A program made the translations under genes and the position numbers. From NCBI GenBank assembly GCA_003864495.1, contig ML133454.1, positions 1,273,149 through 1,337,148 on the forward strand: a DNA stretch of 64,000 nt. The letters run 5' to 3'. Positions 1,419 through 61,500 of this stretch are shown in pieces. Position 1 is the first letter of the stretch. Every line of letters starts with the position of its first letter. Source of the DNA: Nemopilema nomurai. Taxonomy: Eukaryota; Cnidaria; Scyphozoa; Rhizostomeae; Rhizostomatidae. Under the pieces are notes generated by a model. That model had not been told where the DNA came from. It ran no database searches and saw only the letters and a program-made list of their open reading frames with translations.

Positions 1419-2507
1419 TTATTGCAACTTCATGCCTTTAATGCCAATATTTAAAGATTCTCTGCTGTTCGTGTTTGAATGTTGTAATTCCAGTTTATCT
1501 CCAATTTGCTTCAGTGTATTTCCACAGTCCCGTACAGTTTTGAACCAATGGATAAATGAAGAACTTCTTGTGGTCTTGTGCCCAACAGACTTGGACCTGG
1601 TCAATTTTTTTGGCTGTACTTCCTTGCCTTCTTCTCTATTTTTAGCTTCAGCAGCAGAAAATGATGCTGACCTGCTTTTTTTGGTGGATATTTTCTTGGA
1701 TTTGAACCTCCACGAAAATAACTACAAACAAGAAGAGAAATAATAATTGAAGGAGATTGATGAATGGAAATACTTTAGCACAACTTAACCATGAACAAAA
1801 AAAAATTCAAGGCCAAGACAAGAGTCTTGGATTAAAATATCTGAAAACATAATAGTGAATTTTGTATAAACACTTTACAAGAAAAGAGTCACAGTATCCC
1901 ATCTTCCTGAAATTTCATATCATTCAAATCATTGATCAACTAAGTCCAAGAATGCATTTTGAACCCTCAAAAATTGACGAAAAGGAGCGGAAAATTCGAT
2001 TGAATTTTCCTGTTTAAGTTATATATTATTCAAAAGATAGGCTAATGTTAGCACTCGAAAACTGTTCGCTGTAGGAAATATGAAACAAAGGAATGGTCAA
2101 GGCAAGATGACTCATGGCCGTTACAATTGAAGTTCGCAAACGCAAAATCTCTGTAATGTGCTCTGTGGAAATCTGTTAAATGGGTAGCTATGAAGATTCA
2201 TATAAACAGGCTACGTGTATCCAAAGTTGCTGTAAAAAGGAAATTACAGCCTTGTGCAAAGTTTAGGTATTCCCCGCATTTCAGGGGGAAAAGGTCCTGG
2301 CTACATTAAATTCGATAAAAATCGCCACAAGCGCGTCTTCTAGTGTAAAGTTAGCCACAAACTGTACGAGCCACAGTTCTTCTGTATTCTTCAAATTTGG
2401 ATGAATAGATTAAACTTCTTGATGCAAAAGAACTTTAAGAACCGGTGACTTGCAAACTGTAAACAGAACGGTCAATCAATACTCACTTTCGAAAGCTTCA
2501 TCTTCAT
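1419..2507 (-). CDS. NOXA-like BH3-only protein, two exons
   Basis: Minus-strand exons at 2507-2487 (7 codons, MKMKLSK) and 1721-1419 (100 codons plus TAA). The donor is GTGAGT and the acceptor TTTGTAG; both junctions are phase 0, giving 107 residues. The protein is short, basic and Ser/Lys-rich up to about residue 60. It then carries a BH3 motif: CGNTLKQIGDKLELQ at residues 73-87, with the conserved Leu77, Gly81 and Asp82. In the family, BH3-only proteins bind the groove of anti-apoptotic BCL-2 proteins and trigger mitochondrial apoptosis. The pattern Cys-x-x-x-Leu-Lys/Arg-x-x-Gly-Asp-Lys-Leu is closest to NOXA (PMAIP1). No strong transmembrane segment is visible. The start is the first ATG of an in-frame pair (2507 and 2501), with A at -3. 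An overlapping ATG-less frame runs through the 5' UTR but would hit a stop in exon 2. The next gene to the right is an MCL-1-like gene in divergent orientation. Function is inferred from the motif. Confidence 0.7.
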
Positions 2508-2640
2508 CTTCGATTTGAAATTTTAATTGTCTTTTGCTTGCTTCCTCTAAAAGCTTAATAAATTCTCTGTTTTGGTGGACTTCTAAATAGTTATTCTCCT
2601 CGGCTGCACATCGAAGATAGTTATTTACTTCGCAAGAATC

Positions 2641-2675
2641 AACTGAACCAGTTACGTCAGGGTTGCTTTTTTATA
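2641..2675 (-). promoter_or_regulatory. TATA/Inr core promoter of the BH3-only gene with a CRE-like site
   Basis: On the minus strand a TATAAAAAA box spans 2675-2667. A TCAGTT initiator follows at 2646-2641, its A (2644) lying 31 bases below the first T of the TATA box, which is the expected spacing. Between them is TGACGTAA (2659-2652), a CRE/ATF-type octamer. A transcript starting at 2644 would have a 137-base leader containing a six-codon uORF (ATG at about 2602) before the main ATG at 2507. Spacing and motifs are seen; promoter activity is inferred. Confidence 0.55.
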
Positions 2676-3695
2676 ATCACGAGAGCGAGGCTCTTGATAC
2701 GCAATACTGAACAACGAAACGGTAAACAATGAAAGCGGAACTGACATTGTTACTAGGTGGAAATCTGAATTGTCTTGAAGGAAAACTGACGATGTGTTCT
2801 CTCATTCAGCTTACATTCTCTCATGAAAAGCATAAATCATTTTGATTTTCTTTCTGAGATGGCTGGGATACAGTTCAAAGGACTGTAAGAATCCATATTA
2901 ACTGAGTATATAAAAAATATTAGATGATTTCTAGCGGGTGCAATTGAGGCGTAGCTAAAGGAAGTTGGAGGCGGAAGATTCTTGGAAGGATGGCGAACAC
3001 AAACAATGACAGTTAATCTTTCGAAAAAAGCGATTTAGATATTTTCCGGTATTACTTGTTACACTATCCATTCATTTTGCTTACAGGGTGACTAGGTAGA
3101 TTTGCAAGGAAGAAAAGTGGCATCACCACCACTCAAGCCTAGCCTCAAAGTTTTAAATGTGAACTTTGCAGGTTGAAAACTCACTACAGGGAGCTTCTTG
3201 ACCCGGTTTTATGTGTGTCAAATTGGCTGAAAACATAGAGAAAGAGTTTTGAATTTAATGCTGATACCAAATAGATAATATCTTGAGTTGATTCAGAAAG
3301 CTGGACGAGTTTGCCGTGTCTGTACCGTGGCTGCACTAGTCATGATTCGGGGTCGGTTGCGATTGGGGGTCAGTCGGATAACAGTTAAATTTTTATTACA
3401 TTTCTAAAACAGTTTTCTTGTGTTGCTTAAATACAATTCAGGGACGATTGGTTAATCGATTTCAGGCAGATTGTATTAAATTTTTTCTGAATATGTTTTC
3501 TACAAAGATTAAGCTACAGGAATGCCAAAGTTCCAAATGGTTGCTCGAGGTGTTAAACTGAACTTTATAACTGAAAAATAATAACATCTGCAAATAAAAA
3601 TTATGGGACCATACGTAACTTCGTCAACAAAGCAAGATTCTTCATTTGTAGAATTCGATTTTCCAAAACTGATGGAAACAAAAAGGAGGAACATA

Positions 3696-4176
3696 CTCTT
3701 ATGTGCTTAATTGTAGGGGGGGTCGAATAAAGAGGGGTGGACATTTTCCTAGATTTTCATAAAGCGGAGGGGTCATAATAAAATGAACTACAGGGAAAAT
3801 CGTAAATAAGCATCTAAAATGGGAGGGTGAAAATAAAATGAGGGGGGGTGAGATATTGCAAGTGCACTTTTGGTCAGAGTCGAAAACATGTTAGCTGGTG
3901 AACGGCAGAGGCATAGAGCTCAAGAACAAGAAGCAAAACAACAGAGTTAAAAGACAATTTAAGTATGGCTGACGACAATGAGTAAACGCTTTTAAAATTT
4001 TAGGGTCTGATTTATTTTTTCTTTAAAAGAGTTCTGGACGGAGCCAAGCCATTTTTTCTGAGAAGTTTAAAATGTCTAATATGGGGGGTTGATAATAAAA
4101 TGAGGGGGTTGCTATGAAGGGTAAAAAATTTTGAAAAATGCAATATGACCCTCCCCTACAATTAAGCACACAAGAG
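3696..4176. mobile_element. 481-bp MITE with about 25-bp terminal inverted repeats and TA target site
   Basis: The ends are inverted copies. The left begins CTCTTATGTGCTTAATTGTA and the right is the complement, ending CAATTAAGCACACAAGAG, so the repeats pair over about 25 bases into the G-rich stretch. TA dinucleotides at 3694-3695 and 4177-4178 fit a Tc1/mariner-type target duplication. The interior has three or four diverged copies of an ATAATAAAATGA-GGGGG motif and no ORF. It lies between the BH3-only and MCL-1-like genes. Confidence 0.75.
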
Positions 4177-4488
4177 TAGTGAAAGAACAGTGAGATTTTA
4201 GTTTGTATGAAACAGATGCGTGGTGAAAGGGAAATGAAAAAAAAACCCTAGGAAGAAAAAATTACTGTCTCGGTATCAGAAAACAAAATAATGTCCGCAA
4301 AATGTATTCTGCGATGAGGCTGAATCAATGTTCCTTTTCATTTTGAGGACAACTAACAAGAGTAATAACAGACATGATAACAAAAGACGCCGAGACGGCA
4401 GGACTCCGTCTCGTCGAGCTCAAAGAAATCGCACAAGATTGCGAAAGATGGAAGGACGTGATGAAGAACCCGAAACCCCCCCCCCCCC

Positions 4489-4734
4489 CAAGGGCGGATT
4501 TAAGAGGCAACGATTAAGGAGGGGGGGGGGTTAATTGATTATGATCGGATTTTAGTGTCATGCCCTTTAGGTGCCAGGGAAATAATAGAAACGCAAACGT
4601 TTTGAACTTCTCTTTATAACTATAATTTCTAAAATTTAAGAGTAAAGAAAAACTACAGTTGATTCGACAAGAAGATAAATAGAAAAAAACTGGCGTCCCA
4701 TACCCCCCCCCCCCCCCCTATAAGTCCGTCCCTG
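4489..4734. mobile_element. Small hAT-like MITE flanked by poly-C
   Basis: The left end AAGGGCGGATTTAAGAGG and the right end CTATAAGTCCGTCCCTG are imperfect inverted repeats of the CAGGGNCGGAYTTA kind common on hAT-type non-autonomous elements. Poly-C/poly-G tracts lie beside the left end (about 4476-4488), just inside it (about 4520-4530) and just inside the right end (about 4703-4718). No coding capacity and no clear 8-bp target duplication is visible, so the class is tentative. Confidence 0.5.
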
Positions 4735-6239
4735 CCTCTATTACCATGGGCCATTGATTTAATTAGTAAGCACGAATATAAGGCATTGGTAAATATAGAC
4801 GAGCATTCTTGTCGGTTGGAGAGCCAAGCAACTCTGCCCAACTTTAATGAAGAGGCCTCAGGAATTCAACAGTATCAAGAAATCAGTGTAGACCTAATTC
4901 CACCTTTTATCTTATTGTAGTTTTTTACTTTGCTTTGATAATTCTCGAATCTAGTTTCATTTGAATTCGTGCAAAAATTCTCTTACTGCCATTTAAGAGA
5001 ATAAAGTAAACGGGCCCCTTCAACCGGGCAAACTCCTCTGAGCGCTCTATCTTTAGTTCCATGTGTTCATCAGACGATTAGCTAGCTGCTCCATATTCTT
5101 CAACGTTCTTATTGTAATCTGCGGACTGGTCAATAGAGTGAGCAACTACCTGAAATGGCGAAACTTAAATAACTTGCAGAAAATGTTTTGTGCTTTAAGT
5201 TTGAGTACAGTGGCTACGTAGAGGTATCGACCTGGAAACAGAGCTCTTCATCCGAGAAGCCTATAAGCTGTTGGGCCCATGGGGGGCACTTGGCACAGAC
5301 ATGCTGAGGTCACTCCGTTATTTTGGGTCAAATGCTTACCCAAAGCGAGATTTTTTGGTTTTAAATGTTTATCAGAAATGATATTTTCGAGTCCTGTAAA
5401 AACAAAAGATACAATTATGATAATTCTAGGTATAAAATTTAGAAACACTGATATCATTGGGGGTTTGTGAGATTCTCATATCTGAACAAATTTATTGTTC
5501 AACGGCTGAGATTTTTTACCTATTGGTAAAGTCATGTGACCATACCCTTTGGATGTTATAATGCTGCTTTTTGCTGATATTTTCTGGTCTTTTGAAAATA
5601 AGCTGACATTTTTAGATGAACTGAAAAAAACTCTTGGACTTAAAACTGTGTCACTTTCCGTCCATGTATGAAAAACTATTTTGAGGGTTTCTTTATAATT
5701 TTGAAACTTCAAATGTCTAGCTGGATCATTTTTCAACGAATTAATTCTTAAAACATTAATATGCAAAAAATAGTGCCGCTTTTTTTAACCATTGTGAAGT
5801 TTTTGTACCGCTAAGCACTTGTTCAAATAGTTATTCATTCAGCAGTTTATCATATTATTATTATTTTTGCTGAAATTCTAAGTAGAAAAAACGTTTTTAG
5901 GGCAGGGCTGCCTCTACCCATTTTGACCCTCGAAAGTCATATAAGTCACAAGAATAACAAAGCACGAAGAAACAAAAAAGTCGCTGAAAAATCATAACAA
6001 TTTTTGAAATCAGAAAATTTCGTACACTTCATTGGAATGATATGCCCATCGGAGTGTTATAGGGTTGAATACGAGTAAGATATCGAAAGAGACGCGAGTT
6101 CGTTGTGAGATTAGCGAATGAATGATTCATGGACATCCATGTGTTTCCATCAACAGAACATCAGAACTTCAATTATAAATTGAATCCCTCTGGTTCATGT
6201 GCTGCAAATGATAAAGATGTAACAAGTTAGTGGAATCCG
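4735..6239. other. Intergenic, no gene seen
   Basis: Spacer between the MITE pair and the promoter side of the MCL-1-like gene. Open frames are short, AT-rich and lack splice-consistent partners. I see no RNA gene or repeat structure in it. Confidence 0.4.
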
Positions 6240-6240
6240 T

Positions 6241-6387
6241 GATTGGCAGTTACATCACATGATGGACACGTTCCTGTTACAAAGGCGAGGTACTTCCAGA
6301 GGGTCGGCAAAATTCACCTTCAGGGCCTCGTTTCAGCAGATTACGTCAGACTTTCGTGCGAAGTTGCAGAGAATATCGATGACGTCA
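6241..6387 (+). promoter_or_regulatory. Proximal promoter of the MCL-1-like gene with CCAAT and two CRE/ATF sites
   Basis: Within 300 bases of the ATG at 6540 are an inverted CCAAT box (GATTGG, 6241-6246), TTACGTCA at 6341-6348 and the palindromic TGACGTCA at 6380-6387. TTACGTCA is the same octamer that sits in the BH3-only core promoter, in complementary orientation. There is no clear TATA box. The motifs are seen; regulation is inferred. Confidence 0.4.
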
Positions 6388-6539
6388 ATTAGCTTCAAGG
6401 TTCATGAATATCACATGATTATATTAATTTACATATTCCTTTACTGATGACACTGCACTTCTGTTGAAAGTTGTCTTTCTCGACGACTGCGCGAAAGGTA
6501 AAGGTTTTTTGCATTAAGCGGGCCTTGAAGAAACTTGAC

Positions 6540-7516
6540 ATGGCTCCCGACCTAGGATTGGTGGTAGCCAGAAACATACAAACGCCTCCAAGAAGAAGGG
6601 ACGATGAATACAGCAGTGCAACTGAAGGCCGAATTATTTTGTCATCTGACCCCTTTTTCATCATGAGTTTTAATATTGCTGTGTACCTTACAAAAAAGCA
6701 ACTTGGTCAAAGAACAGCCCGACTGAAACAGGGAGAAAAAATGAATGAACTCGCAAAGCAGATGTTGTTAAAACACGAAATAACATTTAACAAGATGGCG
6801 GAGAAATTGACACTAACAAAAGACAACGTCATTGCCACTGTTGAAGCCGTGGGCGAAGAGCTATTCCAAGAGGGCTGCAATTTCGGCCGAATCGTTGCAA
6901 CATATGCTTTGTATATGAAAATATTGGAGTTTTGCCTAAACAATGGTATGGAAGACAAAGTTTGTGAAATCCAGAAAGCTACTGCTAAGGTTGTTACTGC
7001 CCAGAAAGAGTGGGTAATTAAAAATGGCGGTTGGGTAAGTTATTATAAGTGGTCATCATATTGATATCCTCTTGTGTTTGTGTTCAGAGCCAAAATTATT
7101 GTTCCTCTGGTTCATAGTGTGATAGTGCAATTTGGTATTTAAAAATCAAAATTTGTGATTTACCAAAGTCATGTACCTTTCAGCAAAAGTACTGCCTTAT
7201 TAGGGTTGCACCCTTTTGCACCGGAATCATAATTATCCCATATAAATATATGTTGTGGTTTCTCAAAGTATGGCAGAATATTGGAGGACAACAAAATATA
7301 ACTTGAGTTTGAAAGTTCGTATCAACCATCAATTTCTCCCTTAAATTAACTCAACTGGATACATTTGTTGTATAGTGCCTTGAATGTTTTTCTTTCATTT
7401 TTCAGGATGGGTTTATGAATTTCTTTTCTGATCCATCAGAGAAAATTTGGAAGGGCTTCATGATAGCTACTGTTGGATTAGGAGCACTGGCAACCTTACT
7501 TTATTCAAAAGCCTAA
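6540..7516 (+). CDS. MCL-1-like BCL-2 family apoptosis regulator, two exons
   Basis: Exons 6540-7034 and 7406-7516 (donor GTAAGT, acceptor TTTTTCAG, phase 0) give 201 residues. The start ATG has G at -3 and G at +4. The BH1 region (about 108-123) reads EELFQEGCNFGRIVATYA, with NFGR in place of the usual NWGR. BH2 (about 158-172) reads EWVIKNGGWDGFMNFF, split by the intron after the Trp. A C-terminal hydrophobic anchor spans about 182-199, ending in YSKA. The stretch KHEITF through the following helix aligns best with MCL-1 (RNHETAF in human). The BH3-equivalent helix (about 69-83) lacks the Gly-Asp pair: MNEL is followed by AK. Family members control outer mitochondrial membrane permeability. 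The conserved BH1/BH2 and degenerate BH3 favour an anti-apoptotic role, but BAK/BAX-type or BOK-type function is not excluded. It is divergent from the BH3-only gene. Confidence 0.85.
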
Positions 7517-11839: not shown

Positions 11840-12420
11840 CAAGCTTCGACGGATATTCCGGCCTTTCCTGCGCTTTTAAAAGCCTTTCAGTTTCTTTCTT
11901 GGACTTCCCTTGATCTCCTGCCAGGTCCGGCTGTTCGCTGCCATTACGTCTTCTGCCTCCGTTGCATACTGCCTGCGCATTTTCTTCTCATTCCAACCGG
12001 TCTTCTTTGCTTCTTTGCGCGGTTTCCTGAATTCTTTCGGCGTTTGCCCACTCCACCTCTCGATTATTTCTACCTTCTTGTAGTCGATTCAAGCCATTTC
12101 GTAGTTTGGCTTTCTCCTCGTGAAATTCTTCATTATGGTTTTCCCGATAAGTTGATATTTCATTCCCTTCGTGCCTTTCATAAAACCTTTATGCTCTTCT
12201 GGAAAGACATCTTGCTCGCCATGTATTCGTACATCTCCTCAGCAACAATTCATGTCAGTAGCTTTTTGGTTGTCGATAGGCAGGCTATTGGTCTGTAATT
12301 GACGATGACATTCCCTTCATTTATCAGAAGTGTTGTTCTGTCTTCGACCATCCTTTCTGTTATCTGCGTTTCTTCTAGACATACCTAGCGCTGCTCAGTT
12401 AGCCATCCACGATGCACCTT
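11840..12420 (-). pseudogene. Decayed non-LTR retrotransposon (LINE) reverse-transcriptase fragment
   Basis: Minus-strand translation across several frames gives pieces of a LINE reverse transcriptase in order: MVEDRTTLLINEGNV, then NYRPIACLSTTKKLLT, then IVAEEMYEYMASKMSFQ. After a frame change follow GFMKGTKGMKYQLIGKTIMK and an AxIDYKK piece. The NYRPI-CL and A-WIDY-KA motifs are characteristic of this RT lineage, which is common in cnidarians and other invertebrates. In-frame stops and frameshifts show it is dead. Neither element end could be placed. Confidence 0.7.
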
Positions 12421-12432
12421 TACCTCCTCCAG

Positions 12433-13310
12433 CTACAAAAAGTCAGCAATTCTAACTGGTTCAAGCAATTTCAAGTCTTGTACTTTCTTCAGTTGCTTCT
12501 TTAGCTCTTCGGTGGTCACTTGTTCCTGTTTCACCTTTTCTTGCTGCTTCACTTCTCCTTGCTGTTTCACATATTCTTGCTGCTTCCCTTCTTCTTGCTG
12601 TTTCACTTCTTTTTGCATTTTCACCTTTTCTTGCTGCTTCACTTTTTCTTGCTGTTTCACTTCTTTTTGCTGCTTCCCTTCTTCTGCATTTCAACTTTTT
12701 CTTGCTGCTCCACTTCTTCTTGCAGTTTCACCCCTCTTTACTGTTTCATCCATTTTACTCTTTATCTTCTTTTTGCTCTTTATCTTCTTCCTGCTGTTTC
12801 ACTCCTTCTGCACGTCAACCTTTTCTTGTTGCTTCAATTCTTCTAGCTGCTTTACTGCGCCTTGCTAGTTCACTTCTTCTTGCTGTGTCACTTCTTCTTG
12901 CTGTGTCACTTCTTCTTGATACTTCCCTTTCTCTTGCTGCTCCACTTCTTCTTGCAGTTTCACTTCTCTTTACTGTTTCATCCATTTTGATCTTTTTCTT
13001 CTTTTTGCTCATTTTCTTCTTCCTGCTGTTTCACTTCTTCTGCATTTCAACTTTTCTTGTCGTTTCAATTCTTCTAGCTGCTTTACTGCGCCTTGCTGGT
13101 TCACTTCTTCCTCCAGCTTTACTCCTTATTGCTACTTCACTTCTTATTGCTGCTCCACTTCTTCTTGCAGTTTCACTTCTCTTTACTGTTTCATCCATTC
13201 TGCTCTTTATCTTCTTTTTGCTCTTTAACTTCTTCCTGCTGTTTCACTCCTTCTGCACGTCAACCTTTTCTTGTTGCTTCAATTCTTCTAGCTGCTTTAG
13301 CCACTCTATC
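12433..13310. repeat. 18-bp minisatellite with a 210-230 bp higher-order repeat
   Basis: The plus strand is built from variants of an 18-base unit (TTCACTTCTTCTTGCTGC). On the minus strand this reads as Lys-Gln-Gln-Glu-Glu-Val repeats, open as a 75-codon frame ending at 12433. A longer block starting GCTGCTCCACTTCTTCTTGC recurs at about 12704, 12936 and 13149. The two periods differ by about one 18-base unit. It abuts the LINE relic on its left. Whether the Lys/Gln/Glu frame was ever translated is unknown. Confidence 0.8.
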
Positions 13311-16300
13311 GTTTTTTATTCTCTCACTGTAGGTTTTCTGCCTTCACTGTTTCGAGCTTGCTCTAATCTGTTAGCTTCTTTACTTCCTTTCCTTTGATAG
13401 TACTACTCCTGGATAGTATTGTTCCATGGTGGTGTTTTTGTTATTTTCATAATTATTGATATTATTGCTATAATTACTATAATTATTACGCTTCCAGCAT
13501 GTTTGCAGTCATCGTCTTCTATCAAACTGTCCATTAGCCTCCTTGAAATATTTTTGTAGCTCCCGCAGCTCTTTAGTCGACTTTTGTGTTTGCTTTTATC
13601 GAAAAACAAAATTACCGGTATCTTATCTCCAACTTTCAACAGACTCCATTTGTGCCACATACTATGTACTTTGCTGCAGAAACAAAGCTTGGACTAGCTC
13701 AGAGTTGCTTTTATTATTTAATTTTATCCTGTGGTTGTAACAGTCGTTTTTCTTTGCAAGCCCAGACCAGCCAGTTACAAATTACTATTAGTAATAAAGA
13801 GATTTCTAGTTGTAGTTTAAATTGAATTAAACATGCAAAGTTTACACTACTTCTATTATTGTCATTATTTTCATTATTACATCTGTTGTGACACCATCTT
13901 TTTGCCCATTAAGAATGCATTTGTTGAGGTAAACCTGATAGCTGATTCAAAAGGCTTTAAACTACATCACACACCAGATGAAATAATGACATGCCTTTGC
14001 CAGCACTTCCACATGTCTTTTATCTCTAAATATTTAACTACTTCTTTTATGTAAGTTATCATTTTATTATTATTATTTCACTTCCTTAAGGAGGGTCGCC
14101 CTTCAGCGTAGCTGATTTTCAAGGGACCCTCCTTAGAAAGGCAGTGGGGATAGGAACATTTTGATTTCTTCTCTTCATAAAGATGACTCTCAAAGCCTTT
14201 TTCTGCATTCATTTGTTTGACATGATCATTGTACTGCTATGAATGAGGATTCTTACAGCATGGTCATAATACACGATTATCAGGTATTAAGTACGAAGCT
14301 TGCTATTTTGGACTTGCAGAGAGAAAACATGTTTGGCATAAATCTAACATCAAGTAGCGGAAGACACCATGAAGTGCCTCTACCTCAGCACCAACTAAAG
14401 CTGCAATAAAGACTGACTTGCTATTAGTAATAGAAATTATCAACCAGAAAGAAATAAAGCCTTGCAAAGAGTTTGCTCGTTGCAAAGTTGCGAGAGGTCG
14501 AGCATACAGATTACGAGGCTCATTTCTCCAGCATTTGGTAATTGATAATAGAAGCTGCGAAAAGACTAGATGATGCTGACAATTACCAAATATATTTCCT
14601 GGCACCTTAATGTCAGTTTTGTCTGAAAGTGTGGCTGTTGGCCTTAAAAAAAACAATCAAAATAAGTTTATATTGAGGGAATCTGACAAAATCATAGGTT
14701 CAGTGTATTGAACAGGAGACAAAGTAAAGAATGACCAATGACACATGACGAAACAGGGCTACTCAGACAGACCACTTTCACTCGATCTCATCTCAAAGAA
14801 ATCTAAGCTTTGAACTAGACTTGGTATAAAAGCAATTTAAAGAAGTTCGTGCTTCCGAAAATGAAAATCGGTTGACGCCAAAATGTGATGACATTCACCT
14901 TTGCCTTTGATTTGATTTATTAGCACTTAAATTTCAGCTGTCGTTTCATGAAGAAAGTAAGACAACCTTCATTTATAGAACTGGTGGATCCGCCTTACAT
15001 GGGAATTTACTCAATACGTAGCTTAAGGTTTCATTGAAAATCATTGCTAAAAGGACTGTGCCAGCATGCTTGCTGTAGTATCGCCATGCAGTACTTTTGC
15101 ATATCAGTAATCATATGTTCGGGGATTATTTATTAAAGATTCAATAAAAGTCCTTACTGCAGTGCCTACTGTTTCAAAATTTTAATTAAATGAACAAAAA
15201 GTTATGGGATATCAATCAAATTGAATGTGATAAGTCCCTAAAGCTTTGGTTAATTTCAACTGAAGTTAGGCTCTTTTGCCCTTCTCGCTTTCTTACTTGA
15301 CTCTTGAAAACCTGTTGCCTTTTTTTGTTATTTCTTAAACCATTTTTAGGCTCATGGCTTAAGTATACGATGGAACACTTTATTCAAAATAAATTTTATC
15401 ACTCAAAATGCTGATTACGAATTCTCCGATTGAGAGGTGTGCACACTTGTAGCATATGGAATTTAACGACCCCTGGTTGCTATTTCTCGCTTCACACATT
15501 ATGCCATCCTCAAGAAGCTGTCAATATGCCTATGACACATTTACAAAGTGTTTTTTAAACTGCACTGTTGCCTTTCTACCTCCAAGATGCCCTTGCCCCA
15601 AACAGAGCCTTTTTGTGCATCCCAGAGGCTTGAAATATTCTCAAACGTTGGCACAATCTGAAGACCTGCAGACTGGGTGGAAGTGACTTCCTTCGAGCTC
15701 CAGACGCCCAACACATTTGCCGATAAAAATAATTGGGTAAAAATATGGATTCAGGATTTGAGAGTCATGAAGCGCTTCCTTTTGAGCGCCATGCCGATAA
15801 TCCAGCCGCTGACCATAGCTAATTCCAAAAAGAACCATCAAGACCTCACTTTCCAAGTTTAAAGTTCCGCTACCGAAATTGTATTAGCAAAAGGCTGTCG
15901 GAGATTAATTATCAAGCGCCCAGGCCGGTGCCTTGGTTATGTCATAAACAGCATATACTTAGCAGCATTGGACCATTCAAAGGCATTTGAACCAAAAAGC
16001 AACTGCCTGCAATGTTCCAGTTCACTTTTTCTTAGACAAATATTCTGCAGCTTTGAAACAATACCCCAGTGGACTTCGTACAGAGTTTCGACCTGACCAT
16101 TATCAAGAGGGGACGGTACATTTCCCACCAAGCAAGAATTGATTAATATACCCCCGAGTGGCACTCTTTAAAGGTTGTGAACTTGGTACGTGTGCCCTTT
16201 GACGAGTATGCTATTTTCGAGCCAATAGTTATGCCAGAATACGTCATCTCAAAAGCTATTGGCTACTTGTTAGTGGTGAAAGAAAGTGATAGCCTATTCA

Positions 16301-37600: not shown

Positions 37601-40600
37601 CCATCCCCTGTCTCTTCATTTGCTTATAAAGACCAGCTCACTGCTTCCAACCCAAACAATTTCTAATTGAATTGCTATACTTTGCTCTCTGTTCCAGGAC
37701 CCAGCCGCCAGTTGGGACGTTAACGACAATGACCCAGACCCGTTTCCAAGATATGACCCTACTAATGAAAACAAGTAAGTCGAATTTCATTTTAACTTAG
37801 GCCAACGTCGATCAAGCGCTCCTTTTCTACGTTTCCCCGAGTCTTATTTAACAAACAATTCACAATATGCCACTGTGGAGCCTGAAAGTGTACTTTATTA
37901 TTAGGCACGGAACCCGCTGCGCGGGCGAAGTAGCTGCGGAGGCCAATAACAGTAAGTGTGGCGTTGGAGTTGCATTCAATGCGAGAATCGGCGGCGTTCG
38001 AATGCTTGATGGCAGAGTGACGGATCGAGTCGAGGCTGAGTCGCTGAGCTTGAACCCGCAATACATCGACATATACAGTGCGAGCTGGGGGCCCAGTGAC
38101 GATGGAATGACAGTGGAAGGCCCAGGGACTCTTGCGTCCGCTGCCTTCGCAAATGGAATCGCAAAGGTGAGTTTGCCGGATGGTATAATGTTTATGGCAA
38201 ATCACTACCAATCGGTTGTGTATCTGCTACGATTACACTTTTCAACGTACAATGACAAGTGTTTTGAACGCAACAAACAAGGACGCAATTCTATGATCTG
38301 TTTATTCCAAGCAGCTCCATTTTGATTTGAAAATTTGAAACAAAGGACGTTTAGGCCCTAGCACTGATTCGTACCACGTAAGGAATACTAGCGCCAGGGC
38401 TAGGGCTATGTGATGTGAATCTGTGCTAGCGCTGAATAATTACGGATTGATACACTGAACTGATCAAATGAACTAGCACCCGTTATCTTTTTCATGACAG
38501 TACCTGTAAGCTTTCATTGCACTTCTGCACCAAGTTGATTATGCATCCTTGGTTTCAGGGACGAGGAGGTCTGGGTTCCATTTACGTATGGGCGTCGGGG
38601 AACGGGGGTCGACACGACGACAGCTGTAACTGCGATGGCTACACTGCCAGCATCTATACACTGTCGATAAGCTCAAGTTCAGACCACGGAGAGAGCCCCT
38701 GGTACAGCGAAGCGTGTGCGTCGACGTTGGCGACTACGCTGAGCAGCGGTGCCCACGGCGAAAAGAGAATCGTAAGTTCAGTTGCACACCGAATAACGCA
38801 ACGTACAGTTGCTTGGCTGTTGCGTTGTAGGGCGATGTTGCGATAACGTAGGGATGCAATAACCTTGTGCGGTCGCGTTGCGATAACTTGGGGGGGGGGC
38901 AGTAACCTTCTTATGTCCAAAACAGTCTGCACAAGTAATGCGTTGGCGCTGATGTGTGCCCAAGTTTTATGCTTAATACACCCCAATAGTGCCATAGCTA
39001 CAATTTGTAACCTATTTATTTTGACCTTTCAAATGCCAATACTTATACAGCCCACTTTCGCAATCACTGCTTTATACAGCTGTCAATTAATCCCGCATTT
39101 CTTTCAGATCTTTGAAAAACAGCCGTCTTATACTGCTAAAAACTTTATTGAGCCCCTTCCCCCCTCCTGAGTTTCTAAAAATAGAAAGACTAGCAATTTT
39201 GCTTAACGGACGGCAGTAATAAAATCTGAGACGACCTCCATATTTGCCTTCAATGCCTTCAACTCAAATTTGGCTTCGGTTATGGCGGAGAACATTCTTT
39301 GAAGCACTTAAAAGTTACGTGATGATGCTAGGAAGCCTAGCTCTCCTGTCTCTACATTAATGGCAACAAATGCCCCTCTGTTTATTATGCCTGAATGAGT
39401 CTTTCAGCTACTTAATATGACGAGAAGCCTCACAAACCTTCAACAGCCTTTAATGCCACCGATGAAAGGAAATGTTTCTTTTCTAGTGGAGTGGACATTC
39501 TTTCAAGTGCTTTAGCATGTTAAGCTAAGCTTCAAGTATTTCTGACGTTTCTCGCAATTGATTAAATGCGCTAATACCCCCATACAGAGGCGCGGAAACC
39601 GAGAGATTTCTTAATATAATTAGTGCATCAAAAGGACTGGTCCATTTGGACAAAAAGAAATCGAATGACCTACAAAAAATCCGTAGGTTCATAATTAGCG
39701 CAAATTTGGCATCATTTCAATTTAAGAAGCTTTTTGAACGCCAGAGACCTGTATTGTGTCTACTAAGGCTCTTAACTTATCCTTTCTCCATGTTTTGTGA
39801 CAATGAAAGACTGTCCTTGATAACCTCGGATTGTCCCTTTGGGTTTCTCCCACTTGGGCGAAGTAACCTACAGAAGCTGGAAGGAGCAGGCGTAGCCCTT
39901 CAGTCGGAAGTAATTCAGAGAATATTGATAAATTCATCGGAGAGAATTTTGTTGTAAAGGCTAGTTTTCACAGGAAATATTTATCCAGTTCAAAGTAGCA
40001 CTTATTCTTGCTGCTCAAATTCACGTCTTTCCATAATCTTCATATTTATGCGCCCTGTGGCAACTGTGACTTCAAGCTTTCTCTTCGTTTGCTAAGGTCT
40101 CCCCCCGTCGAAAATTGAAGCTCCTCCGTGGGAGAATTTCTAGCACGACAACTGACTAATGGGTAACGTTTTATGTGAACCAAGGTTGTCTCAGATGGAC
40201 CCAGACATTAGTTTGACAACAGTATCGATGCGCCACAAGGCAGACTGATTCATGTTGATCAAGGCAGCTAATATTCAGTATCTGTCGCGCCATATCGAAT
40301 CATCACGTGCAATTGAGTTCAGCCTCGACGTAGATATCAGATTCAATTATAAGGAAGTGGTTTGCGAGGGTCTTTTATCAAATTGGCTGCTGCCTGGCTC
40401 AAATAGAATCCACGTTTATCTAAGTATGGCTTGGCCTCTCTTTGGGTTACGTATATTGTGGCAATGTATGAACTAACACGCAGTAAATACGCCTCGTTTC
40501 CACGCGTGTGCGCTTTGCAGACATCGAATTTCTGGCCAATTGAGCCATAACAGCTTTCCCACCATAGCATCCCCACCATAGCATCCCCCACCATAGCATC

Positions 40601-43031
40601 CCCCAGCCTAGAAAGTAGCTTTTTTGTTTGCAACCCTACTTAAAATTGCTTCATTATTTACCACCATCTACCTATTTAAAATGAAAGGCTCACCTGGTCT
40701 TGTGCGTTCCATAAACGATGGCTTTTGTTCCTCGTTCAGGTTACCACGGATCTGCATAACCTTTGCACAGAGAGACACACTGGTACATCTGCATCGGCAC
40801 CTCTAGCAGCAGGGATACTTGCTTTGGCCCTTGAAAAGAAGTAAGTATGATGTCACTTGCGAAGGAGTTTTGCTTCATTTCCTCTAGAAAGAAGCTTCTT
40901 TAGCCCATTTATTCCTTGAGACATACCGTTATAAACTAAGACCTTGAAAAAACCCACTCACATGAATAATATTAGGTATGGAACACCACTTTGTCCTTTT
41001 CAAGGGCATATAGTGACATCTTAGAGTCCTTGAGACAACAGTCAATCGTGAAGATGGTATTCAGGTTGTTTCGCTATAATGTAGGGACCGTTTAGCCCGC
41101 CTAGGGTAAGAAACATTCTATATTATTCTAGTTCTACTCCTAGCCTTTCTACTCTTACCTATTTCAAAACAACCATTTATTGTTGGAAGTGACATGCAAT
41201 GAAGTCCTGAGCCAAAAATTAGCTTAAAATGCCCATTTGTTAAAAAGTGCATTTTAGGGGGTAGAAAACCGCGCTTGGAGGTGTGCTCCATCAATTTAGG
41301 AACATTCCAATGTACACAATTGCTTATCCTTTTAGAAAACGCACTAATGTCTACGCATATTGACCATTCAACATTTGAGTGGGGGACTTGCCATTTAGTT
41401 AAGAGTAGGCAAGTTATGCTGAAGTTGAACGTATAGCTTTGGTGGATAGCCATGAATAAATCGCTTGAAATGCTTGCTACCAGAGTTGTTTACTGAAATC
41501 TGTTGCTTCTTTCAGTCCCAAGCTAACCTGGCGTGATGTGCAGCATATTGTGGTGTCAAGTGCCAACTGGCAGCCCCTGAAGCATGACACGGACTGGAGA
41601 ATGAACGGCGTTGGTTTCCACGTGAACGAGAAGTTTGGCTTCGGTTTGCTGGATGCAGAGAGGGTCGTCAGCAAGGCCGATCCCAAGACGTGGAAGAATG
41701 TGCCCGAGAGCAGGGAGTGTCGCGGGAAAAGCTTCTCAGATGCAAAGTGAGCCATGTCTAAAGTATCTACAAGCGCCATGCAAAATTGCGTCGCCTGACT
41801 TCTGTTTATTGCTTTATAGACTTTATAAGCTCTTACCGTAGTAGGTTTGGTTAAGACAGTCACAATTTGTTAAATGTTGATTATTTTGTTACAGAGCACT
41901 GCGGTGGAATCAGCCTCTTACTGTCGAAATTGAAACTGACGGTTGCCTTGGAACGAAGAATGAGATTCGCTACCTAGAGCACGTGCAGCTGATTCTGACA
42001 CTTGACTACAGCAGAAGAGGAGACTTGACAATCTTATTGACAACACCAATGGGGACAAAGTCGATTCTGCTACCGACAAGATCAGAGGACTCGTCTGACG
42101 AGGGCTTCAAGAGATGGCCTTTCATGACGACGCACGCATGGGGGGAGGATCCTCGAGGAAATGGACCTTGGAAATTCGAGACGCAGGGGATGCCCGTGCC
42201 AATACTGGTACTCTTAGGGACTGGCAATTGGTCCTTTATGGAACCAAGCAGAAACCTAATCACTTGAAAGTGACTCATCCTGATATCCCAATTCACCGAA
42301 AAGCAGTGTCTGACGACACCAAGTCGGTACAAGGCAACCAACAGGCCTCTGTCACCATCACCAAGGTCACCTACACGTTTGGCTCAAGGCCCATGTTGCA
42401 GTCGCTGCCAAATCCTGGTGCACCAGCGCCAAGACAAGGCCTGTCTCCCAGCCTGAGCCTCTCCCCCAGTCTGCCCGATCTTCCTACCATAGCCCCTCTT
42501 AATAACATTCTACCAAAGAAAGAAACACAAACTATTGGTCAGCCAGCACACATCATTGACAACCTGTTGGCCTCATCTGTCGCCAACCTGCCTCGTTTTC
42601 AAAATCCTGCATTTTCACAGGGGACGCCAAACTTTGGCAGCCTCGGTGTGGCGCGGCCACAGAACTTTCAAGGTGCAGGATACAGTGAGACCCCTTATTC
42701 GCTGATGCAAACGCGCAGTAACATCCCATTTGCAAATTACATGAAGCACTTAAGCCCAAGAAACTACCAGTCCCAGAGCATTACGAATTACTATTTAGGG
42801 CAAGATCAACGGAATCAACGATCCAGGATTGCATATCCTTATAAATGGAGGTCGCCCGTCGCAGGAATGAGAGTGGTAGCGGATCCTCGAGCACCATTTT
42901 GGGACTATTTCGGACGGAATTTTAGGAAGCGCTCTTTGAAGGGTCCGGAGGGACAAAGAGACAAAAAATACTCCAAAAGACCTAATAGTTTAATGAGAAC
43001 TGTCAAAAGGGGCAACTTTCAGCAAACGTAA
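25692..43031 (+). CDS. PC1/3-like (furin/kexin family) proprotein convertase, 11 exons
   Basis: Exons: 25692-25898, 34980-35084, 35319-35444, 36399-36528, 37159-37196, 37698-37774, 37905-38166, 38559-38771, 40740-40840, 41516-41746 and 41895-43031, all GT-AG with matching phases; about 875 residues. The order is signal peptide (1-29), prodomain with secondary site RRSRR (86-90) and primary site RQKR (116-119), S8 catalytic domain, P domain with RRGDL, then a Cys-free tail. The catalytic triad is Asp188 (ILDDG), His229 (KHGTRCAG) and Ser403 (HTGTSASAP); the oxyanion Asn330 (WASGNGG) excludes PC2. Such enzymes cut prohormones and neuropeptide precursors after dibasic sites. The RRSRR site, SNIPFANY in the tail and absence of a Cys-rich domain or membrane anchor favour PC1/3 over furin, although parts of the catalytic domain read furin-like. 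Near 42157-42162 the frame shifts by one base, so the last exon is not open as given. The tail has further dibasic sites (RKR, SKR, VKR). Confidence 0.92.
28901..28942. repeat. Perfect 19-bp direct repeat, two copies
   Basis: TTTGTGACTAAAAAAGGAT occurs at 28901-28919 and 28924-28942, separated by four bases. It looks like a recent local duplication. Confidence 0.9.
29494..29824 (-). CDS. Possible last exon of an unrecognised gene nested in intron 1
   Basis: A strong minus-strand acceptor (ACTGTTTCAG, exon from 29824) leads into about 110 open codons ending with TAA at 29496-29494. The translation is balanced in composition, for example [20 protein letters not shown] and [15 protein letters not shown], and local GC is above the surroundings. 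I do not recognise the family. A second open stretch at about 31130-31235 on the same strand ends at a possible GTATCT donor and could be an upstream exon, but the linking exons are not evident. It may equally be a pseudogene piece or chance. Confidence 0.25.
35825..36187. mobile_element. MITE copy B of the TA-flanked family, 363 bp
   Basis: It begins TACACGCTTTTTTTATAAGG and ends AAGAAAAGCGTGTA. It lies in the intron before the convertase exon at 36399 and is an inverted-orientation relative of the element at 22451-22816. Its TIRs are about 24 bases (CACGCTTTTTTTATAAGGAACC and complement). No coding capacity. Confidence 0.85.
37388..37441. repeat. Three tandem copies of a 19-20 bp unit
   Basis: CCCAGGTAGCCAATGTGTT is repeated three times, the last copy partial, inside a convertase intron. 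Each copy contains CCAAT on the complementary strand of the GCCAATG core region, but no role can be shown. Confidence 0.85.
40561..40604. repeat. Three tandem copies of a 14-15 bp unit
   Basis: ACCATAGCATCCCC is repeated at 40561, 40575 and 40590 within a convertase intron. It is a simple micro/minisatellite. Confidence 0.85.
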
Positions 43032-54745: not shown

Positions 54746-55746
54746 TTTAACGGACCTCAAGGACAATTCTTGGGAGAGAGGCTCTGTTTCCCAACGAGGC
54801 TACATGCTTTCTGGTTTATTTAGCATTCACTAAATGAATAAGTGAGCGAATCTCTCTCAGAACGAATCTCAAAAGCAGACCTGTTCGGAGTACTGATGGG
54901 GGCGTTTTGGTCGACAGAAAAACTAAAAAGTTGGAGAGTGTAAAGACGAATTGACACACTAATCAACCAAGATATGTTTCGGGAAAAGAGGAATATCAAA
55001 TTAAAGTTCATGACCTTTTAGCATGGGCAATTATCTGAGAGGGATATTGATCTCGAACTTGGGGCGCCATTTCTCCGGGGCTTCTGGTGTCCTTAGCACT
55101 TTTGCTTATAAGTTCTTCACAAAATTATCCTACAGTAGTGGCTTCCCTCATATTTAGATAACCATATCAAACAAAGTTTTATTCACTGCGAAATCGTTTT
55201 ACCTGTTATGAGAACTCTGGCTGTTGTCAACTGCTTGTGGGATCAGAGATCATTACCAGAGTGCAGGCAAAAGTATTAATAAATAATAAATAACCTGGAG
55301 ATGCTTTCAGATAAAACATCAAATAGCCGTACAAGGCATTACACGAAACACGAAGGTATTAGCCTACTTTTGCCCCTAATCACGCGACTCTTGAACGGGA
55401 AGTGCAGCAAGGACTTGCCGCTTGAAACGCTTCGAATCAGCTTAATTTTTCTATTCGTTGCAAAGACTGGCTCGAGATTGGACACTTTGGGAGTACATGC
55501 AATTGAGGCTTGCAATATTCGAATTGAGAACCGCTTGTGGAAATATGCAGCGGGTGGACCAAAAAGTTTAAAATGTAGCCCCGACATATCGGATAAACTG
55601 AGCGACACAACTTAACAGGATTACTTCTGAATTCGAATCCTGCTCACCCAACTACATTGGTTGCGACGATTACACACGAAATGAGTATTAGGCGACGGAA
55701 TCAATATCAATCCATTCCTGGATTGCAAATAGGCCTCCACGCCGCG
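54746..55746. promoter_or_regulatory. Shared 1-kb region between divergent IDH3A and Rab genes
   Basis: The start codons of IDH3A (minus, 54745) and the Rab gene (plus, 55747) are about 1 kb apart, so both promoters must lie here or in unseen 5' exons. No TATA box or other strong motif stands out, and I see no gene in it. Confidence 0.35.
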
Positions 55747-57163
55747 ATGAATCCTGAGTACGATTACTTGTTCAAGATTTTGCTCGTTGGCGACAGTGGA
55801 GTGGGAAAAAGCTCGTTGCTTGTTCGGTTCGCTGATGACGTTTTCTGCGACAGCTACATAAGCACGATCGGGGTTGACTTCAAAATCAAAACAGTACTGC
55901 TCGATGACAAAGTTGTGAAGTTACAGGTACGGTTGCAACATCGACCAGGCCTAATTGCATCGTCTTTCCGCGAGTCTTGGAATAAATAATGCTAAAAGCG
56001 TCGTACAGTTCAAGTAGATAAACTATGAATATACGTTTATACAAAAACGGAGCTAATTAACTGGTTACTAATTCATGAAAAATTCTATGTAAGAAGTCAT
56101 AACCAGACATAACACATTTCAGTGTACCAAAAACTGTAGTTACTTGTTAGGGATTTCATAAATAAACGCATTCTTAGAAGTCTGGATAATTGATTCATTC
56201 TTTCAGAGAATTAACTATTGGTACCAATTAGATTTTGTATTAATGGTGAAATTGGAAGTGGAAAATCTTCAATATTATGAATAGACTAAAAAGACTCAAG
56301 CACAGGGAAAAAATTGCTCATTCGTGATTCTTGCTGCAATCTTGCTATTTTTGCCAGCAACCCTTTCTTACAGTGTATCACCTGTTAATTCATGAAGCAG
56401 AAAATTTAAGCATTGTCAAACTATAGCTCAAAGTTAAACATTACATTTTCATGGCCTGGCTTTATGTTGAAAGTCAAAGTCATTGAATCTGAGCAAACAC
56501 AATAAACCTTAACCAACACAGGGGCCGCTTTTATTGTCCATCTTCCCCACATAACATATTCTATGATGCTATAGCTCTAGACCATTATAATTGCTACTGC
56601 ACTAGCAAATTGCCAAAAAACTCACTGCGCTAAAGAAAAGTAAAGTACATGCGAGAATAGGACTTCGTGTTTCTTGTAAGAGCAATCCAATATTAAAAAA
56701 GAACCTAAAAGGCGGCTTTGTTCCCTTTCAGATATGGGATAGCGCTGGACAAGAACGATTCAAGACATTAACAACGACATATTACAGAGGGGCGCATGGA
56801 ATTATTGTCGTATATGACGTCACAGATCGAAACTCGTTTATCAACTGTGGACAATGGCTGACCGAAATCGAAAGAAACGCGTGTGAAGGTGTTCAAAAAC
56901 TTATTGTTGGGAATAAATGTGATAAAGCTGATAGGGAAGTTGACTTTGAGGCAGCTTCTAGCTTTGCTGAAAAGCTTTCTGTTAAATTTATCGAAGCAAG
57001 TGCCAAGGATTCGATAAACGTGGACAGGATTTTCATGACGATGGCTGCTGAGCTGAAAGAAAAACTAGGGTCTCCGATACAGGAAGAAAAAAGCGGACTT
57101 CAAATTGGGTCTAGTACTAGACTTACTGATGAAAGTAAATATCGATGTTGCGCATGGCAGTAA
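55747..57163 (+). CDS. Rab1/Rab35-like small GTPase, two exons
   Basis: Exons 55747-55926 and 56732-57163 (donor GTACGG, acceptor CCCTTTCAG, phase 0) give 203 residues. G motifs in order: GDSGVGKSS (P-loop), [10 protein letters not shown] (switch I), WDSAGQERF (switch II, Ser where nearly all Rabs have Thr), GNKCD and EASAKD. The N-terminus [18 protein letters not shown] and the MTMAAEL helix match Rab1, while parts (SSLL, KTV, TTTYYRG) recall Rab35. Rab1 drives ER-to-Golgi transport and Rab35 endosomal recycling. The C-terminus is RCCAWQ, a CCXXX prenylation end rather than the usual terminal CC; CAWQ also reads as a CaaX box. An in-frame upstream ATG at 55681 would add 22 residues. I chose 55747 because it matches the Rab1 start and has G at -3. 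It is probably a divergent paralogue. Confidence 0.92.
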
Positions 57164-58569: not shown

Positions 58570-61500
58570 TTATTCGTTTTTTGCTTTTCTTCTTGCCATT
58601 GCACGGACTTTCAATTTTTGGGAACTGTCAGCGTCTAAATGCCACGGCTCTGTGTTCGCCCCACAGCACAAAACTGCGGGGGAGACGTTCGGCAACCGCA
58701 ACACATTGATGACGTCAATTGCACGTGACATCACAACCTCGAATTCGCGTTGATTTATCCTGCAAGAGCTCATTCCCCACTCAGTATTTGCCAGTTTGGT
58801 CAAACAGAGAACGGCTTTCGGCACGAAGTCTTGCGAATAGGCTGCTAGTTTGCCGGCCGTGGAAATCAACGAGGACACAAGTCCCGCTGAAACAGGGAGA
58901 TCGTCGTTACAAAATAGCGAAGACTTGGCTTCATAAATCAGCGTTTCGATCATCTCGTAATACTTTGCTATTTGCTCCATGCTGCACACGCCGGGGCGGA
59001 CTGAAAACTCCCCAATGCAGTAAACGAGGCTAGAGGCGACGGAGTCGAGGCCAGGCAGCGAGCTTCGAATTTGCTTAAAGAAGTAGAGTATATCGTCAAG
59101 GTGTACGCAGACAATCTGCGGACTCTTTGTGCACATCTTGACGAATTGTTCGGAAAAGAGCTTCCTCACAGCTGTTTGAAGTTCCGGGTCCGGAAACAGT
59201 ATGAAAATCCGCTCTAGCATTGAAGGGAAGAGTTCCTTGATGACCTCCTCACTGACCGTGGCATTAAGACACTGAAAGAACTTCCGCAGCAGTAGTGGCA
59301 CTATTTGACAGCAAACCCGAATCCGGGTCCTACTCGACATAGGCCGCAAGGCAACGTAGACCTTGTCGAGTTTATCAATGGTCTCGGGCCCACCAGACTC
59401 GCTTCTCAAAAAGAAATCTGAAATCGAGTGGGAGGACATGCTGAGGAATGCGCCTAGCCCTCCAAAACTGGCCTCTAAGTGCTCCTCAAGATACTTGTCC
59501 AGTGTGTTAAGCTGCTGTAGCTCCAGCATTGCGGAGGTGCAAGGTATATCAAGGACACTGTGCAGCAGCTCACAGACTGTAGAATCTGTGACCAAGATTG
59601 GCAGCAGCTCTAGAGCCTCAAACAGCAAACTTCGCGGGTGCCAGGCGACCAGTTTCATCAAGTTGGGGAAAAACCTGCTCAGAAACGGAAACCGCTCAAA
59701 GAAAGCAAAGTTTCTCAAACAAAAGTCAAGCACCTCAAAGCTGGCGGACGCGCTTGTGTACAGTTCAGAGGGAACTGTTTTCAGGTACGACTGTACGAAC
59801 TTCTCAGCGTTGTAAATCATGCTGTCATGATGCTCCACAAAATACTGTATGTCAGCAGGGTACAACTTTCTGGCGTATGCTGACTCCCCCATGATTCTGC
59901 CGTGAACTCTCTCGATTTCGGGAAAGACCTTCTTGACAAGTGTGTCATCTTGCTGACATAACAACGTCAGTACCCTCACCGCCTCGATGACAGTGGCGGT
60001 AAGCATGGTCTTATCCTCCAACTTACGAGGGTTCTTTTCCGCCTGTCCGAGCAGTCTTAGGCAGTAACGGACACTTGCATTCTTAAGAGTCACCCCTCCA
60101 GTTGTCATTGAAACTATGGATGCCGTTGATGCCTTGCGACTTCCAAACGACAAATCTCTTTTTACGGAGTCTGATTTCTTCGGAGTTGAAACTGACGGCG
60201 GCCGTTTTGTAGACGAAAGGCTGTGCAAGGACCTGCTTTCGTAGAGACTTGGTGGTGTGCCTAACAATGGACTGAGCTTCATGTCAAGGGAGTCTTTGGA
60301 CTTGTCTCCTTCGTTGTCAACATACAGGAAACTGTTTAGTGACGATAGAGATGATGAAAGTGAAACAGGAGCAGAAGAATCGCTGCTTGCAGAAGAGGCG
60401 ATGTAGAACGAATTCTGACCAACCAAGCGCGGTGTAGCCGTCGATGGTCTAGAGGATCTGGAATTTGTCAAAGAAGTCAATTATGACCACAATTTCAAGG
60501 ATCTGGGAAATCATTAATGCTATTGTGATAATCTGCTACATCAGCTGCTGCCTTGCCTACCAATACAATTTGCTACACCTATACCTGACTTGTTTTTAAT
60601 CTACTACTCTAAATCCTCGAATTGGCCCCCAATTTATTCTCTATACTACTGATGTGGGTTATTTGAAAGGGAGGGGGCGCTTATTCTAGTAGGATTTTGT
60701 TTATCATTCTATTGTTGTAATTGCACATGCACACTGTAAATAGTGTAAAAGCTTTGTTATTGTAATTAAGAGGGGAGTTGTTGAGGAATTTTAATTGTGT
60801 AATGGTGTTTGTGTGGATAAAATGGTGAAAATGTCAAAGTTGAGTTTGCCTTAGTGTGAAACTGTATCAAACTGAAAGCTCTACCACATTATTCATTATT
60901 CATTCATTATTACCACCTTATAAAATCACCCAAAGCATGCAACATAAAGAGATCCTTTTTGAAATTATAACTTGACTTGACAATAGATTTTATGAAATTG
61001 GAATGGAAAGATAGCAGATATGTACTGATTAAATTTTGTTAAAAGAATGAGAGGATCTAAAGCAACTGCTCTGAAAATCAGTTCAAACTACGGTAGTTAG
61101 GGTAAGCATTCTGTGAGCAGTAAGATCAAAGATGAGCTAAAGAACTTCATGTTTTATAAGCTCAGTTCCAACAACTCAATTGTGCATATTCCAACGAAAC
61201 ATTATATGAAAGTTTTGATAATTGAAAAGCATCTTGCAAAACAGAAATAGTTCAGAAATAATGGTACTTGAAAACTTGAAAGTTAAAAAAAACCAACCAA
61301 AATGAGAAAAAATATAAGGCTAGCAAAACAATCTAATATGTTACACCTACTAATCATTTCTGCCTGTTGTTTACTTTACTTGAATCGCAATAATTGTTCC
61401 TGCCTATATTAATTTTATAAAATTAGATAGTTTGTAAGTGATTAGATTTTGTGATTTATTTATTAAGCTAATAAGCTGGTTAGTCAGTTGGGTAGTTAGT

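Follow-up and report, generated by a model that had tools for sequence, protein, structure and literature searches.

When did control of cell death by BH3-only proteins arise, and can such a ligand be encoded beside its own target? These questions are raised by a 64,000-nucleotide window of Nemopilema nomurai DNA (C88:1273149-1337148 of the 213 Mb genome), in which a short minus-strand gene with a BH3 motif (gene 1) lies head to head with a plus-strand BCL-2-family gene (gene 2). A passage of the coral apoptosis survey PMC4715348 describes characterisation of the BH3-only repertoire as of particular importance and likely to be challenging, given little sequence conservation. A conserved BH3-only candidate with a BCL-2-family neighbour would allow the age of BH3-only control to be tested directly, and the two would form an unusual ligand and target pair if the linkage is functional. 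The reading that we prefer, with a probability of about 0.7, is that gene 1 encodes a BH3-only death ligand that docks in the grooves of pro-survival BCL-2 proteins, and that the gene 2 product is one probable target. Gene 1 is likely a new BH3-only gene adjoining a probable pro-survival BCL-2 gene, ordinary in kind and uncommon in its setting; the portions of main text covered by our literature search held no report of a linked BH3-only/BCL-2 ligand and target pair.

A short minus-strand gene and its conserved BH3

Gene 1 is a 107-codon frame in two predicted exons that opens with an ATG at 2507 (Table 1). The predicted splice from 2487 to 1721 uses a donor, AAA/GTGAGT, that agrees with the consensus at 8 of 9 places and tops the 4 donors scoring at least 7 in the 4 kb upstream, and the 100-codon frame opens straight after the acceptor TTTCTCTTCTTGTTTGTAG. 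A poly-A signal of the ATTAAA type lies at 970 on the minus strand. When the 107-residue protein was searched against 5.8 billion proteins, one of 3 candidates proved to be a relative: the 99-aa P0001 (E 7.6e-29; identity 65% across 89% of the query length). A two-sequence profile search again gave P0001 as sole relative (1 of 50 candidates), and the prokaryote genome contigs and viral contigs searched held no relatives. Its own genome yielded no match besides the window copy, which makes a different genome the most likely source of P0001. Because such a relative exists, the coding frame is real; exon 2 has a coding frame that is conserved outside this genome and occurs once within it. Identity is uneven, with 37 of 41 residues shared in positions 45-85, 15 of the 36 preceding residues and 10 of the 22 that follow. 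None of 24,736 Pfam families matched at E <= 10, in a scan that has little power for a family as short as that of PMAIP1. Weak matches to ribosomal L19 (E 0.018 and 0.03) were put down to basic composition, and a relationship to L19 was rejected.

The case for a BH3 is carried by a 16-position matrix built from 12 known BH3s. The motif of gene 1 scores 19.3 bits, first among the 698 open reading frames (ORFs) of 40 or more residues in the window (runner-up 9.4), a score that none of 20,000 shuffles reached and that 1 of about 4 million random positions reached. With NOXA dropped from the matrix the motif is still first at 13.7 (runner-up 7.5), and known BH3s scored with leave-one-out range from 4.1 to 27.8. 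When run on 18 further loci (47,730 ORF residues in all), the matrix placed first the BH3 of a protein encoded on C89/C16 (18.4), which we tentatively label Bax-like, and second a Bok-clade protein (12.5); gene 1 outscores even the Bax-like BH3 of its own genome. Conservation of the Leu-x-x-x-Gly-Asp motif, on which the initial annotation had staked its proposal, held up in P0001, where 11 of the 12 BH3 residues are identical and Q79 differs.

A structure predicted from the two sequences has low confidence except for one helix that includes the BH3 (residues 55-98 in the numbering of exon 2), and the ten-residue blocks holding the motif have a mean predicted local distance difference test score (pLDDT) of 95 and 87. 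The protein is predicted to be a flexible tail followed by one helix. The motif has the form L-x-x-x-G-D-x-hydrophobic, with a weaker matrix score in P0001, and neither a BCL-2 fold nor another BH motif was found (no Pfam match at E <= 10; a single helix after a low-confidence tail). Gene 1 is therefore likely to encode a BH3-only protein, and the two-exon minus-strand gene with a BH3 consensus described earlier stands, its frame conserved and its splice predicted. Like the BH3-only proteins HyBH3-only 1-4 of Hydra and NOXA, HRK and BAD of vertebrates, it is short, mostly of low confidence outside the BH3 helix and without a detected BCL-2 domain; unlike them, it carries R-S-x-S sites conserved at three positions, matches no named family and adjoins a BCL-2 gene. 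The four Hydra proteins are listed in Table 1 of PMC10192318, and a figure of PMC8998228 shows, according to its legend, BH3-only candidates from Acropora and Nematostella, which may include a relative of gene 1.

All three R-S-x-S-[F/V] sites are retained in P0001, and three such sites were attained in 0 of 50,000 shuffles of gene 1 or P0001. They resemble basophilic-kinase or 14-3-3 sites, and we infer that they could be used as such; BAD uses sites of this type. Their conservation suggests a phospho-switch. The best-conserved block of the protein (residues 45-85) contains the BH3 together with two of the three sites.

The same sites bear on an alternative, that the BH3 is fortuitous and that gene 1 encodes a conserved protein, basic and rich in serine, with a helix that has another role. 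The sites may hint at such a different regulatory role, L-x-x-x-G-D by itself is common, and the BH3 of P0001 scores 12.9, falling to 7.4 without NOXA, which is level with chance matches in the window. We consider this alternative unlikely in view of the rarity of the score among shuffles and random positions, its excess over the genome's own Bax-like BH3 and the position of the motif within the best-conserved block; the weak L19 matches look like an effect of basic composition.

How close is this BH3 to that of NOXA, to which it had been called closest? By BLOSUM62 over 16 residues the claim stands for the window protein (NOXA 37, BAX 27, PUMA 25). By identity NOXA, HRK and BAX tie at 6 of 16, and the closeness fades in P0001, where NOXA (28) and BAX (27) are level. 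The NOXA-like naming is based on about a dozen residues and weakens in P0001. Gene 1 shares C-x3-L-x2-hydrophobic-G-D-K-L with NOXA/PMAIP1, and differs from human NOXA in having isoleucine in place of phenylalanine, in showing no evident similarity outside the BH3 and no NOXA-like tail (judged by eye), and in its length of 107 aa, NOXA being 54 aa long. PMAIP1 has a Pfam model. Because the closeness is partial and there is no Pfam match, we name gene 1 BH3-only with a NOXA-like motif, and not NOXA.

The BCL-2-family neighbour

That the plus-strand gene belongs to the BCL-2 family, as first proposed, is borne out by its 201-aa product, which matches Pfam Bcl-2 with E 4.3e-19 and has the N-x-G-R of BH1 and the GGW of BH2 (Pfam and alignment); its structural match to the family adds little on its own. 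Its own BH3 region, E-K-M-N-E-L-A-K-Q-M, has no G-D and is degenerate. We predict a pro-survival function because the two coding exons are split at the conserved GGW boundary (7034/7406), the C-terminal tail is hydrophobic, the N-x-G-R of BH1 is intact and the BH3 lacks G-D, and gene 2 is thus probably a pro-survival BCL-2-family gene.

The more specific claim that gene 2 aligns best with MCL-1 was not confirmed. In phmmer searches it scored 49 bits with Trichoplax Bcl-2L2 (6yld), 40 with Bcl-xL and 39 with Mcl-1, and a profile of its family, which still held the unspliced tails of some relatives, gave 58 for Bcl-xL and 51 for Mcl-1. A profile trimmed at GGW had 57 matches at E <= 1e-10, all of them Bcl-xL- or Bcl-2-derived chains. 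The 50 structural matches listed for gene 2 include no MCL-1 entry, which excludes nothing. In trees the gene 2 family forms its own clade (support 100/99), and the approximately unbiased test (p-AU) gives 0.33 for placement with MCL1 and 0.28 with Bcl-2/xL/w, so that MCL-1 orthology gains no support and is not rejected either. Both the trees and the A6 profile were built from 5 of the 6 family members, P0005 being left out as near P0004, and the first and second trees included 9 and 7 of the genome's other BCL-2 places, respectively.

Gene 2 resembles the coral AmMcl1-like protein and vertebrate MCL-1 in its BCL-2-family membership, GGW split and C-terminal hydrophobic tail. MCL-1 has W-D-G-F-x-x-F-F after GGW, and so does gene 2. 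A difference is that gene 2 scores Bcl-xL as high as MCL-1 or higher.

Could gene 1 and gene 2 be true orthologues of NOXA and MCL-1, the vertebrate pair already linked? The W-D-G-F-x-x-F-F shared with MCL-1 would fit, as would the C-x3-L-x2-[FI]-G-D-K-L common to gene 1 and NOXA (BH3 string of NOXA from Table 1 of PMC9171138) and the coral Mcl1-like protein described in PMC4715348. We nevertheless regard this as very improbable: gene 1 lacks a Pfam match at E <= 10, the P0001 BH3 scores NOXA and BAX level, Bcl-xL is at least equal to MCL-1 for gene 2, and the tree gives no clear placement.

The genome has 20 BCL-2 places, about 16 after removal of four apparent duplicates, and its repertoire includes three Bok-clade genes, as in corals, which fits a cnidarian origin. 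A search for the GFP family gave no match here and none in the controls, and so has no bearing on that origin. Three pairs of places on separate contigs (L037/L038, L027/L028 and L021/L035) encode an identical protein over their shared core and are probably uncollapsed haplotypes. A divergent group of BCL-2-like genes on C2 and C88 (L025, L026, L029) has V-L-E-E-x-I-N-W-G-R-I, and two similar BCL-2-like copies on C53 and C45 (L023, L024) have internal stops; together these may represent an expansion with decaying copies.

Linkage, promoters and a possible death switch

The head-to-head arrangement at about 4 kb was confirmed, with start codons 4,033 bp apart on opposite strands and divergent. 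With about 16 BCL-2 places spread over 213 Mb, we calculate a probability of ~6e-4 for any one gene to have its start no more than 4 kb from such a place. Octamers of the cAMP response element (CRE) type occur within 250 bp of the ATG of both genes, and 3 of the window's 9 octamers are in these two promoters (the whole-window number under a Markov model would be about 1.9). Among the other BCL-2 places, 17 were tried, 6 were dropped for want of a usable ATG, and 1 of the 11 tested has such an octamer near its ATG. The rarity of the octamer is not a clean test because it was noticed after the promoters had been inspected, and the sites hint, post hoc, at common control of the two genes.

Several observations weigh against a meaningful linkage. 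The pair was picked because it is linked, so the figure of ~6e-4 applies post hoc. No relative shows the linkage, because the longest listed contigs of P0001 (2,212,926 bp) and of the gene 2 relatives P0002-P0006 all differ in length; if P0001 and P0002 are from one species, the two genes would be apart there. The CRE-type octamer is common in the genome, occurring 14 times at other loci that span 77 kb, some of which overlap.

One possibility, to which we give roughly even odds, is that gene 1 is a BH3-only gene linked to gene 2 by chance, with other BCL-2 members equally its targets; this is compatible with the first half of our preferred reading. Despite the low per-gene figure, the presence of several BH3-only genes and the post hoc choice make chance possible, and among the 5 relatives of gene 2 there is none with a listed contig of the same length as that of P0001. 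The divergent layout argues the other way, the longest stop-to-stop frame wholly between the two start codons being 102 codons, as do the CRE-type octamers near both ATGs, post hoc as they are, against 1 in 11 elsewhere.

How might the ligand and target act under the preferred reading? Gene 1 would be switched on, or its product freed from phosphorylation at the three R-S-x-S sites; its helix would then fill the groove of the gene 2 product and of other pro-survival members, and this occupation would free Bax/Bak-type effectors so that mitochondrial permeabilisation could begin. In PMC8282340, NOXA and BID were both bound by a BCL-2 protein of Hydra that carried human end pieces, and also by reconstructed BCL-2 ancestors that predate deuterostomes. 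A NOXA-type BH3 could therefore use gene 2 whatever its subgroup, and MCL-1 identity is unneeded. We put forward the ligand and target relation and the shared regulation as hypotheses. Quite unlikely, in our view, is the fuller form of the idea, a self-contained death switch in which a BH3-only ligand gated by phosphorylation and the pro-survival protein that it targets are divergently transcribed under shared CRE/ATF-type control. If true, it would mean that stress signalling sets the ratio of killer to protector from one locus in an early-branching animal.

Control of either gene by p53 was also considered and found no support. A p53-family gene is present in this genome; no p53-type site with up to 3 mismatches lies between 1164 and 7954, one lies at 1163, past the stop codon of gene 1, and the 30 such sites in 64 kb are at background level. 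At another BCL-2-like gene (L026), two CRE-type octamers at 885 and 955 precede the presumed ATG by 100 and 170 bp.

Features of the locus and its surroundings

Table 1. Predicted elements of gene 1, gene 2 and their flanks (window coordinates)
Feature	Position	Strand	Basis or remark
Gene 1 exon 2, 100 codons and stop	1419..1721	-	contains the entire part conserved in P0001
BH3 motif CGNTLKQIGDKL (residues 73-84)	1491..1526	-	matrix score, predicted helix, P0001 identity
Region of the three R-S-x-S-[F/V] motifs (first residues 24, 49, 59)	1554..1673	-	
Gene 1 intron	1722..2486	-	predicted; GTGAGT ... TTTCTCTTCTTGTTTGTAG
Gene 1 exon 1, coding part (MKMKLSK, seven codons)	2487..2507	-	predicted; ATG after upstream in-frame stop
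CRE-type octamer	2652-2659	-	upstream of gene 1; consensus match only
TATA box TATAAA	2670-2675	-	upstream of gene 1; consensus match only
Two CRE-type octamers, TTACGTCA (6341) and TGACGTCA (6380)	6341..6387	+	upstream of gene 2; noticed post hoc
Gene 2 exon 1, BCL-2-family protein to GGW of BH2	6540..7034	+	Pfam Bcl-2 E 4.3e-19; relatives P0002-P0006
Gene 2 intron	7035..7405	+	predicted; TGG/GTAAGT ... TTTTTCAG/GATGG; P0003 reads straight across the junction
Gene 2 exon 2, BH2 end and hydrophobic C-terminal tail (tail by eye)	7406..7516	+	P0003 aligned over the whole tail

Further along the window, the plus strand carries exons of a proprotein convertase (37852-43031; Peptidase_S8 E 5.5e-17, with a P domain at E 0.0038, below its cut-off) and of a small GTPase that we read as Rab-type (55597-57163; Ras family E 5.7e-39), and the minus strand carries the zeta-1 subunit of the AP-5 complex in a single long open frame (58570-60480; E 3.2e-72). 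Long open frames at 12389-13397 on the plus strand are leucine/serine-rich, of low complexity and overlapping in two phases, and are likely a repeat and not a gene. In the 10 kb before the window (L031, 986-3731, plus strand), long open frames (501 and 104 codons) probably belong to the next gene beyond gene 1.

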